A stretch of 64,000 nt of DNA from Hyphomonadaceae bacterium (lineage in GTDB: Bacteria > Pseudomonadota > Alphaproteobacteria > Caulobacterales > Aquidulcibacteraceae), in assembly GCA_016791425.1 (NCBI GenBank), contig JAEUMQ010000001.1:313138-377137 (forward strand), written 5' to 3'. The notes under the pieces were generated by a model. The model had not been told where the DNA came from and ran no database searches. It saw nothing but the letters and a program-made list of their open reading frames with translations. The position numbers were made by a program, and so were the translations under genes. Below are positions 32,278 to 48,997 of the stretch, in pieces (within the stretch, counting starts at the first letter, position 1; each line of letters begins with the position of its first letter).

Positions 32278-33672
32278 ATGCAAGACCTGCCCTTCATCCT
32301 CTCCCCGTCCCAGTCGGCCGCGCCGATCCACGCGCTGCGCGCCGGCGAGTGGGCGGGCTGGATCGAGACTCGCTCTGAGGCGATGAAGCGGCTGGCCGCC
32401 GCCTATGATTTCCGTGCGCAGGCGGGAAAGAGCCTGATTGTTCCCGGCACCGACGGCTCCATCGAGCGCGTGCTGTTCGGTCTCGGCGAGAAGCTGGATC
32501 CGATGCTGTTCGGCGCGCTCTCCATGCAGCTGCCGGCCGGCGAGTACGATCTCGCCGCCGCCCCGCGGGAGATCTCGCGCACGCTGATCGCGACGGCCTG
32601 GGGCATGGGCGCTTACGCCTTCGATCGCTACAAGCCGCGCAAGCGCCCCGCCCCCAAGCTCGTCATGCCCGACGATGCGCAGGCCGACGAGGTGCGTCGC
32701 GTTGTGTCGGCGGTCCATTTCGCGCGCGATCTCATCAACACCCCGGCCGGCGACATGGGTCCGGAGGCCCTGCACGCCGTCGTGGCGAGCCTGGCCAAGG
32801 AATGCGGCGCGGCCCTGGAGGCCGTCGTCGGCGCAGAATTGCTCGAGCAGCGCTATCCGCTCGTCCACGCTGTCGGCCGCGCAGCGGCCGAAGCCCCTCG
32901 CCTGCTGCACCTGAGCTGGAGCGCGCCGAACGCTCCCGCGGATGCGCCCATCGTGGCGATCGTCGGCAAGGGCGTGACCTTCGACACCGGCGGCCTCGAC
33001 CTGAAAACCGATTCCGGCATGCGCCTGATGAAGAAGGACATGGGCGGCGCCGCCCATGCACTCGCGCTCGCGCGGCTCGCCATGCAGGCCGGGCTGCCGG
33101 TGCGGTTGGAGCTTTTCCTGCCGATCGTGGAGAACGCCGTCTCCGCCGCCTCCTTCCGCCCCGGCGACATCATCAAGAGCCGCAAGGGCCTTACCGTCGA
33201 AGTCGATAACACCGACGCCGAAGGCCGCCTCATCCTGGCCGACGCCCTCACCAGGGCCTGCGAAGAGAAGCCGGTTCTCATCCTCGACTTCGCCACCCTG
33301 ACCGGCGCGGCGCGCGTGGCGCTCGGCCCCGAGCTGCCGCCGCTCTTCACCGACGACGAGGCGCTCGCCGCCGACCTCCTCAAGGCGTCCTCCGAGAGCT
33401 TCGACCCGATGTGGCGGCTGCCGCTCTGGGCGCCCTACGAGGACAACATGGACAGCGCCGCCGCCGACCTGAAGAACACCGGCGACGCCGGCATGGCCGG
33501 CGCGATCTACGGCGCGCTCTTCCTCAAGAAATTCGTGGACGTGAAGGCCTGGGCGCATTTCGACGTCTACGCCTGGAACGGCAAGGACAAGCCGGCCCGT
33601 CCCGCCGGCGCCGACGCCCATGCCTTGCGAGCCTGCTGGCAGGTGCTGAAGCAGCGCTTCGGCAAGGCCTGA
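32278..33672 (+). CDS. M17 leucyl aminopeptidase-family protein
   Basis: A 464-residue cytosolic metallo-aminopeptidase, probably hexameric, releasing N-terminal residues from peptides. The catalytic core has KGVTFDTGGLDLKT (Lys and Asp metal ligands), the family signature NTDAEGRLILADAL and a C-terminal GALFLKKFVD helix. The first ~140 residues form the non-catalytic N-domain. A TATAAG lies 7 bases before ATG 32278 and no Shine-Dalgarno sequence is visible, so the mRNA may be leaderless. It is divergent from tadD. Divergence from PepA is enough that I give no symbol. Confidence 0.9.
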   Translation: MQDLPFILSPSQSAAPIHALRAGEWAGWIETRSEAMKRLAAAYDFRAQAGKSLIVPGTDGSIERVLFGLGEKLDPMLFGALSMQLPAGEYDLAAAPREISRTLIATAWGMGAYAFDRYKPRKRPAPKLVMPDDAQADEVRRVVSAVHFARDLINTPAGDMGPEALHAVVASLAKECGAALEAVVGAELLEQRYPLVHAVGRAAAEAPRLLHLSWSAPNAPADAPIVAIVGKGVTFDTGGLDLKTDSGMRLMKKDMGGAAHALALARLAMQAGLPVRLELFLPIVENAVSAASFRPGDIIKSRKGLTVEVDNTDAEGRLILADALTRACEEKPVLILDFATLTGAARVALGPELPPLFTDDEALAADLLKASSESFDPMWRLPLWAPYEDNMDSAAADLKNTGDAGMAGAIYGALFLKKFVDVKAWAHFDVYAWNGKDKPARPAGADAHALRACWQVLKQRFGKA

Positions 33673-33683
33673 GCGGCCCTTCG

Positions 33684-33714
33684 TTGAATTCTAGCCAGAA
33701 GTTGGCTAGAATTC
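33684..33714 (+). promoter_or_regulatory. Toxin-antitoxin promoter fused to a palindromic operator
   Basis: GAATTCTAGCCA (33686-33697) and TGGCTAGAATTC (33703-33714) form a perfect 12 bp inverted repeat with a 5 bp spacer. The same bases supply -35 TTGAAT (33684-33689) and -10 TAGAAT (33707-33712) 17 bp apart. The antitoxin ATG at 33719 is 7 bases past the -10. Confidence 0.85.
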
Positions 33715-33718
33715 CGGG

Positions 33719-33973
33719 ATGAAGGAAGTCGGCCTCTACGACGCCCGCAATTCCCTTTCCGCCCTGGTGGAGGAAGTGGAGCGCACTGGCGCGGAAATCC
33801 TCATCACGCGCCACGGCAAGCCCGTGGCGCGGCTTGCGCCAGCGAAGAAGCCGCTGACCCAGGCGGAGCGTGAACGGCTCTTCGAGGAGATGTTCGCCCG
33901 GCGCGACGCCCGCACCGAGCCCGACGAACCCTTCGACTGGAAGGGCGCAATCCGCGAGGGCCGTGAGGAGTGA
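33719..33973 (+). CDS. Phd/YefM-family antitoxin (VapB role)
   Basis: An 84-residue antitoxin. The N-terminal ~50 residues match the Phd/YefM DNA-binding fold: YDARNSLSALVEEVERTG followed by ILITRHGKPVARLAP. The acidic C-terminal tail (about 55-84) would wrap and inhibit the toxin. It is likely to repress its own operon through the 12 bp inverted repeat that overlaps the promoter. Its stop overlaps the toxin start (GTGA), the usual coupling. The ATG sits at the predicted transcription start, so the message appears leaderless. Confidence 0.9.
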   Translation: MKEVGLYDARNSLSALVEEVERTGAEILITRHGKPVARLAPAKKPLTQAERERLFEEMFARRDARTEPDEPFDWKGAIREGREE

Positions 33974-34368
33974 GCGTCGTCATCGACGCGTCCGTCGCGT
34001 TCGCATGGATCCTTCCAAGCCAGCGGACTCAGACGGCGCAATCCTTCAGAATGCGGCCCGATATCATTGCCCCCTTTCTATTCGAGTATGAGTTGCGCGC
34101 TGGGCTGCTCGCCGCCGAACGGCGACGCCGGATCAGCAGAGACGACGTTGATGCGGAGGTCTCCGCCGCGCTTGCGTTGATCGCGATTGAGCCCCCGCCT
34201 CACTCGTTCGATCCCGCGCTCGCTCTCGCACGAAGCACCGGCCTCACCTTCTACGATGCGACCTACCTTGAGCGGGCCCTCACGGCCGGTGCGGAGCTGG
34301 CGACTCGCGACCAGGCGCTGCTGGACGCCGCCGCCCGCATCGGCATCCAAATCGTTGACGCCCGTTAA
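33970..34368 (+). CDS. PIN-domain ribonuclease toxin (VapC-like)
   Basis: A 132-residue PIN-domain toxin, a magnesium-dependent ribonuclease that typically cuts tRNA or rRNA. The acidic residues are in place: Asp in VVIDASVAFAW (residue 6), Glu in FEYELRAG (about 40), Asp in FYDATYLERA (about 95) and Asp in TRDQALLDAA (about 113). The GTG start overlaps the antitoxin stop. The target RNA cannot be inferred. A stable addiction module next to core genes suggests acquisition, although base composition is not strikingly different. Confidence 0.9.
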   Translation: MSVVIDASVAFAWILPSQRTQTAQSFRMRPDIIAPFLFEYELRAGLLAAERRRRISRDDVDAEVSAALALIAIEPPPHSFDPALALARSTGLTFYDATYLERALTAGAELATRDQALLDAAARIGIQIVDAR

Positions 34369-34397
34369 CCAAGCGCCCACAGAAATCCGGGCTCAAA

Positions 34398-34440
34398 CCA
34401 CAATATCTAGCGCATCGCCGCTTGCTAGCACCACTAGATA
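34398..34440. promoter_or_regulatory. TATCTAG/CTAGATA inverted pair upstream of a MarR gene
   Basis: CCACAATATCTAGCGC (34398-34413) matches 12 of 16 NrdR-consensus bases, and TATCTAG (34404-34410) is mirrored by CTAGATA (34434-34440). It may be the MarR autoregulatory operator or, less likely, an NrdR site. Confidence 0.4.
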
Positions 34441-34478
34441 GGCCATTGTTTCACCACCGAAGAGACTCGGGGGGCGAA

Positions 34479-34832
34479 ATGATGAGTTTGGAGCTCGACC
34501 AAGCACGAGCGTTGGACCTGTGGCGCAACGTGACGGTCATGGCCGTCCGCGGCGAGGAACCGGACCTCACGGCCCGCCAGTTGGCGGTGCTGATGACGGT
34601 GCATCTGGGCCCCCCGCCCCATACGGTGCGGGGCCTCGCCCTGGCGCTGAAGGTCGGCAAGCCGGCCATCACGCGGGCGCTGGACACCCTCTCCCGCTAC
34701 GACCTGGTGCGGCGCCGCCGCGATCCCAGCGACGGCCGCAACGTGCTGGTGGAAAAGACCGTGCGCGGGGCTGAATTCCTGGTCGGCCTCGGCGACATGA
34801 TCACCAGCCGCGCCGCGGAATTGAACCGGTAA
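34479..34832 (+). CDS. MarR-type winged-helix regulator, short
   Basis: A 117-residue transcription factor. The winged helix covers about residues 25-95: DLTARQLAVLMTV (helix 2), PHTVRGLALALKVGKPAITRAL (helix-turn-helix, read as two pieces) and the wing RRRRDPSDGRNVLV. It is shorter than typical MarR proteins (140-150), lacking most of the first dimerisation helix. ATG 34479 has GGGGGG 4 bases ahead. The inverted TATCTAG pair lies 40-80 bases upstream. It converges with the cytochrome gene, 9 bases apart. The regulated genes are unknown. Confidence 0.8.
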   Translation: MMSLELDQARALDLWRNVTVMAVRGEEPDLTARQLAVLMTVHLGPPPHTVRGLALALKVGKPAITRALDTLSRYDLVRRRRDPSDGRNVLVEKTVRGAEFLVGLGDMITSRAAELNR

Positions 34833-48915: not shown

Positions 48916-48997
48916 CTAAATCTGACGCCCCAGTCATCGATGGGCCGCGCGCCCGTCATCGACGGGACGGTTCCACGGGTCATTGAGGGGTGACGGC

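Follow-up and report, generated by a model that had tools for sequence, protein, structure and literature searches.

A predicted self-repressed promoter for a leaderless antitoxin mRNA in a chromosomal Phd/YefM–PIN toxin-antitoxin operon

Results

The gene at positions 33719–33973 on the forward strand of the window (the whole 64 kb stretch of DNA that we analysed) encodes a protein of 84 residues that matches the Phd/YefM antitoxin models PF02604 (E = 2.4e-12, 46.9 bits against a cut-off of 29.8) and TIGR01552 (42.6 against a cut-off of 20.8). The initial annotation had called it a Phd-type antitoxin, and these matches bear the call out. Since the Pfam match begins at residue 1 and most homologues have an ATG at the aligned place, the ATG at 33719 is very probably the right start. 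The next gene on the same strand (33970–34368) starts with GTG and encodes a 132-residue PIN-domain (VapC-type) toxin (PF01850, E = 5.3e-10, 40.4 bits against a cut-off of 23.6), which no NCBIfam model matched. The TGA of the antitoxin gene overlaps this GTG by 4 nt (GTGA), and the same offset is seen at 20 of the 27 loci of the bacterial family where an ORF of 100–170 residues was found, a number in which the window's own locus is counted twice. Four acidic positions, three D and one E, line up in 11 toxins, the window's and 10 homologues, and we take them to be the catalytic residues. With a known-family antitoxin encoded upstream, a PIN toxin carrying these acidic residues and overlapping genes, the pair has the make-up of a type II toxin-antitoxin system. 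The nearest solved sequences are remote for both proteins: the RelB-named antitoxin 9g12 (E = 2.7e-4) and, for the toxin, PAE0151 and PAE2754, two PIN-like proteins (best E = 3.1e-5). A short gene for a MarR-family regulator (116 residues, 34482–34832) comes immediately after the toxin gene. At one homologous locus (L004, in genome G056) the toxin-antitoxin pair also follows an M17-like aminopeptidase gene, as judged by eye, and the chromosomal site may be the same in both genomes.

Between the M17 aminopeptidase gene of the window (32278–33672) and the antitoxin gene lies an inverted repeat, GAATTCTAGCCA-gaagt-TGGCTAGAATTC, whose 12-nt arms (33686–33697 and 33703–33714, forward strand) are 100% complementary with 5 nt between them. 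A sigma-70-like scan placed a predicted -35 box, TTGAAT, at 33684–33689 and a predicted -10 box, TAGAAT, at 33707–33712, both on the forward strand and separated by 17 bp; this is the sole such site in 33500–34500 (shuffles of the region gave a mean of 0.1) by the E. coli sigma-70 consensus. The initial annotation had the repeat supplying both boxes at this spacing. That holds for the spacing and for the -10 box, which lies wholly within the right arm, but only four of the six bases of the -35 box fall within the repeat. Likewise the ATG had been placed 7 bases past the -10 box: its A is indeed the seventh base after the box, and six bases separate the two. The predicted switch, the promoter and the first codon of the gene pair thus fit into 38 bases. 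The ATG is not preceded by a Shine-Dalgarno (SD) sequence, and from the position of the -10 box and the family-wide pattern described below we infer that transcription starts at the A of the ATG itself (33719, forward strand), which would give a leaderless mRNA beginning with AUG.

The site stands out from its surroundings, with 46% GC at 33684–33718 against 67% in the window. The window contains three places with a perfect repeat of this kind (arms of 12 bp or more, loops no longer than 10), which make 6 raw counts, the same total as in 20 first-order Markov sequences taken together. A search of the 4.36 Mb genome for both arms around any 5-nt centre finds one occurrence.

We compared the upstream region with those of related antitoxins. 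Sixty genomes of the same family were searched, of which 27 had a match, and 30 loci were taken; the best 80 of at least 341 named genomes encoding a relative formed a second set, and a profile search contributed further Phd/YefM antitoxins from the family, so that the loci come from best matches and do not comprise all antitoxins of the family. Removal of near-duplicates reduced the family set from 50 to 44 starts and the set from other genomes from 79 to 68. Nine loci that did not match a home-made N-terminal profile (L116, L118, L121–L124, L145, L147 and L150) were left out of the main count, and so was L009, whose aligned start codon is CTG; the excluded L116 carries the strict promoter pattern. 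A start was called leaderless-compatible if a -35/-10 pair with at least 8 of 12 matches and a spacer of 16–18 ended 4–8 nt before the start codon, a scan window and threshold set after the upstream sequences had been viewed.

By this measure 25 of the 44 family starts were leaderless-compatible, against a mean of 0.9 and a maximum of 3 in shuffled starts (shuffling here, as in the operator-repeat and RNA-pairing comparisons below, preserved single-base composition only). Ten of the 44 had an SD core, none had both and nine had neither; no SD core was thus found in any of the 25. The same scan in seven other 5-nt windows gave 0–7 of 44, and the mean promoter score of the family peaked at exactly 6 nt from the start codon (6.25, shuffle mean 3.67), the distance found in the window. 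A T at -35 from the start codon is present in 73% of the 44. The picture in the 68 starts from other genomes, again taken from best matches, was different: nine were leaderless-compatible (shuffles, mean 2.5, maximum 7), 36 had an SD core and none had both, and promoters scoring at least 8/12 were commonest at 29–33 nt from the start (17 of 68). Over both sets an SD core accompanied 0 of 34 leaderless-compatible starts and 46 of the 78 others, so that in these sequences the leaderless-type and SD signals are mutually exclusive. The scored sequences are related by descent, and p-values would be indicative only. The claim that operator, promoter and leaderless start coincide is a plausible one, and the antitoxins of the family maintain this spacing far above chance.

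Among the close homologues, 7 of 10 non-redundant loci (the window's included) were leaderless-compatible and none had an SD core. In L003, L007, L008, L010, L011 and L030, all of the same family, the -10 box lies 6–7 nt from the ATG with no SD sequence; many distant homologues have a GGAG-type leader. Neither the palindrome nor the spacing is invariant, because L004, L005 and L006 fall below the 8/12 threshold and L003 has no clear left half-site by eye. On an antitoxin tree of 104 rows, which has few columns, many unresolved forks and some near-copies, the leaderless label required 16 changes compared with 25.4 in shuffles, and none of 500 shuffles was as low. The group containing the window's protein (14 rows, weak support) holds 10 leaderless-compatible starts, three unclassified and one with an SD core.

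A palindrome with a related, TGGCTA-like core lies upstream of many of the homologous antitoxins, as judged by eye. Operator-like repeats (at least 9 of 15 pairs, centred within -36 to -12) accompany 27 of the 38 leaderless-compatible starts, 31 of the 56 with SD leaders and 24 of the 35 left unclassified, compared with 17–20% in shuffles; near-duplicates are included in these 129 starts. A palindrome over the promoter, accompanying homologous antitoxins with varying strength, is what an autorepressed operator would look like. Median distances from the centre of such repeats to the ATG were -22.0 for leaderless-compatible and -23.5 for SD-led starts, a similarity partly forced by the search range of -36 to -12. 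Because operators of the two kinds of gene are centred about equally far from the ATG, the genes seem to differ mainly in the position of the promoter and in the leader. We also considered whether the operator changes register relative to the -10 box, since in many loci the distance from the operator centre to this box seems to go opposite ways in the leaderless and the SD-led class. Part of this follows of necessity from an operator that sits about as far from the ATG in one class as in the other, and we claim only a shift of the promoter.

Cold-shock genes of the same genomes served as a control. None of 19 was leaderless-compatible and 17 had an SD core (3 of 30 loci were set aside and 8 near-duplicates removed); the family therefore does use SD leaders. 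Across the 60 genomes the pattern TTGA-N19-TANNNT-N6-ATG had 259 matches against 38 for the reversed pattern; leaving out genus g7 (five genomes) changes these to 221 and 21. With N12 in place of N6 the counts were 70 against 49, or 28 against 29 when g7 is left out. In all these figures an orthologous site shared by related genomes contributes several matches. From this excess over the reversed and N12 controls, promoters that start at the ATG look like a general feature of the family. The comparison does not support a design special to one gene: the strict pattern occurs at three places in the window's own genome, namely at the antitoxin at 33719, at a second Phd/YefM antitoxin and at an IS1595-type transposase gene, and it recurs widely in the family.

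The second antitoxin (L216:189–226; G000:C21:181588–181625) has the same succession of -35 box, 17, -10 box, 6 and ATG with a different palindrome, GACTAGTC. The IS1595-type transposase genes (L212:224–261, at G000:C2:92623–92660, L213 and L214; identified by Pfam for L212 and L213 and by eye for L214) have TTGACA-17-TAGTTT/TAGATT-6-ATG, and L213 and L214 also have a palindrome, CCCCAA..TTGGGG, across the -10 region, so that they too look like genes with a leaderless start under an operator-like repeat. A gene for a TetR-looking regulator, so judged by eye (L215; G005:C1:2333816–2333853), has TTGACA-17-TATTAT-6-ATG, and this type of promoter is nearly identical in several g2 genomes. One further loose match in the window, at 48983, is probably due to chance, because an upstream ATG in the same lipoprotein-like ORF is, by eye, the likelier start. 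We also asked whether AbrB/MazE-type antitoxins of the same genomes form a second leaderless class. They show a weak tendency, with 4 of 18 leaderless-compatible, one of the four also having an SD core (9 of 30 loci were set aside, 5 for contig ends or odd length and 4 because no start was found, and 3 near-duplicates were removed). The trend is therefore shown for the Phd/YefM type but not for antitoxins in general.

Discussion

We consider it likely that the 38 bases form the promoter-operator of an ordinary chromosomal type II Phd/YefM and PIN/VapC operon that represses itself, with a leaderless antitoxin mRNA as the predicted product. The palindrome would be the antitoxin's own operator. 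The antitoxin, or its complex with the toxin, would cover the -35/-10 region when bound and so block RNA polymerase; upon degradation of the antitoxin, polymerase would start at or beside the A of the ATG and produce the leaderless message, with the toxin probably made by translational coupling through the GTGA overlap.

Other explanations of the repeat have to be weighed against this one. It begins 13 nt past the stop codon of the M17 aminopeptidase gene and folds well as RNA (-26.2 kcal/mol, z -4.4), so it could be an intrinsic terminator or 3' hairpin of that gene with promoter boxes there by accident. We reject this as very improbable, because no run of T follows the repeat, because a scan for terminators (a G+C-rich hairpin with a T run behind it) detects none at this place, and because in the homologues operator-like repeats adjoin the antitoxin beside different upstream ORFs. 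Of 11 other loci compared, only L004 has an upstream gene that is visibly similar by eye (the longest ORF was taken at each, including some from the other strand that are perhaps not real genes). The promoter also keeps its spacing to the ATG far above chance. That some regulator other than the antitoxin binds the repeat is the least probable of the readings considered here. The small MarR-family gene downstream would be a candidate, but a repeat of related core, as judged by eye, accompanies the antitoxin in many other genomes, the exact arms occur only once in the window's own genome, and antitoxins of the Phd/YefM type are reported to bind palindromes over their own promoters (PMC7730913).

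The operator could also be real and the transcript not leaderless, if a promoter further upstream or read-through from the aminopeptidase gene supplied the mRNA. The SD cores and the promoters at 29–33 nt in many homologues of other genomes speak for such an arrangement; at the window's locus there is neither an SD core before the ATG nor another promoter-like site in 33500–34500, and the antitoxin AUG has a predicted probability of being unpaired of 0.00 in read-through RNA versus 0.86 in leaderless RNA. We regard this possibility as improbable. The operator hairpin in the window's read-through RNA (33678–33725) is predicted to extend and pair with the antitoxin AUG, and L011 is similar. Masking of the start codon in read-through RNA is not a conserved device: the predicted values were 0.00 for the window and 0.03 for L011 and ranged from 0.38 to 0.95 for the other nine of 11 close loci, and class means were not below those of shuffled upstream DNA except for leaderless-compatible starts of other genomes (0.45 vs 0.46).

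Leaderless toxin-antitoxin mRNAs, and operators at the -10 box, are already known elsewhere. The former have been described in Mycobacterium tuberculosis and in Methylosinus sporium 5, an alphaproteobacterium like the probable host of the window's operon. In M. tuberculosis, 32 of the 37 toxin-antitoxin pairs with a primary transcription start site are leaderless, a class defined there by a 5' end on the start codon or no more than 5 nt from it (PMC3898074). As proposed for the window, these pairs are transcribed from the start codon, and they are enriched among leaderless genes (PMC3898074), but their ends were mapped and the organism belongs to a distant phylum, while the start in the window is predicted. 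Not all toxin-antitoxin operons of M. tuberculosis are of this kind, because mbcAT starts 34 nt upstream and has a 34-nt leader (PMC7291234). The 88 leaderless transcripts reported for M. sporium are, similarly, linked above all to stress regulators and toxin-antitoxin systems (PMC12403871), and 171 leaderless starts were reported for Sinorhizobium (PMC3616915). As for operators, that of M. tuberculosis mazEF6 coincides with a TANNNT -10 motif just upstream of the transcription start, as predicted for the window, although its antitoxin is a MazE (PMC9477884). In Haemophilus influenzae vapBC-1 the inverted repeat to which the VapBC complex binds lies no more than 50 bases from the ATG of the antitoxin gene; a putative Fis site, also present there, sets that system apart (PMC3302801).

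The yefM-yoeB and axe-txe systems provide a comparison for the antitoxin itself; their toxin presumably belongs to another family than the toxin of the window. These antitoxins are of the Phd/YefM kind and their palindromes overlap the promoter, but they have two TGTACA-core palindromes 12 bp apart where the window has one long TAGCCA/TGGCTA palindrome (PMC7730913). Although homologous, these two systems place their operators differently with respect to the -10 box (PMC7730913).

The initial annotation went on to tie toxin release to ribosome stress through leaderless translation, for which we find no support. The 375 leaderless mRNAs of Caulobacter are reported to be translated about as efficiently as those with leaders, and the authors contrast leaderless translation there with stress-induced mechanisms (PMC4117421). 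The MazF model, with its leaderless mRNAs and specialised ribosomes, was not reproduced according to two reviews (PMC9031893, PMC7167474), while the authors of the M. sporium and M. tuberculosis studies suggest a link of leaderless genes to stress or growth arrest (PMC12403871, PMC3898074). In our preferred reading of a self-repressing operon, leaderlessness would be a standing promoter arrangement of the bacterial family, common to other antitoxins and some other genes, rather than a special stress switch.

What the comparison adds is that related operators appear to go with leaderless-type promoters in some lineages and with SD leaders in others. Among the open-licence papers that our searches listed, we recognised none, from titles and opening lines of abstracts, on an antitoxin operator family that exists in a leaderless and an SD-led register side by side. 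We think the chances are even that leaderless starts are the family default for Phd/YefM antitoxins whatever their operator, and that in other lineages, where relatives retain an operator close to the ATG, the promoter sits about 25 bases further upstream and makes an SD leader. If so, unrelated operators would repeatedly share the 38-base unit of -35 box, operator, -10 box and ATG, and a single repressor-operator system would exist in two promoter registers, in which repression and noise could be compared with and without a leader. That the compact unit of operator, promoter and start codon recurs in the family now rests on comparison and not on the eye alone, and the link between leaderless transcription and toxin-antitoxin systems seen in M. 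tuberculosis and M. sporium would extend to many Phd/YefM antitoxins of another family. Related operons with leaderless-type and SD-led starts in parallel would serve as a natural experiment on how the lack of a leader affects the supply of antitoxin.
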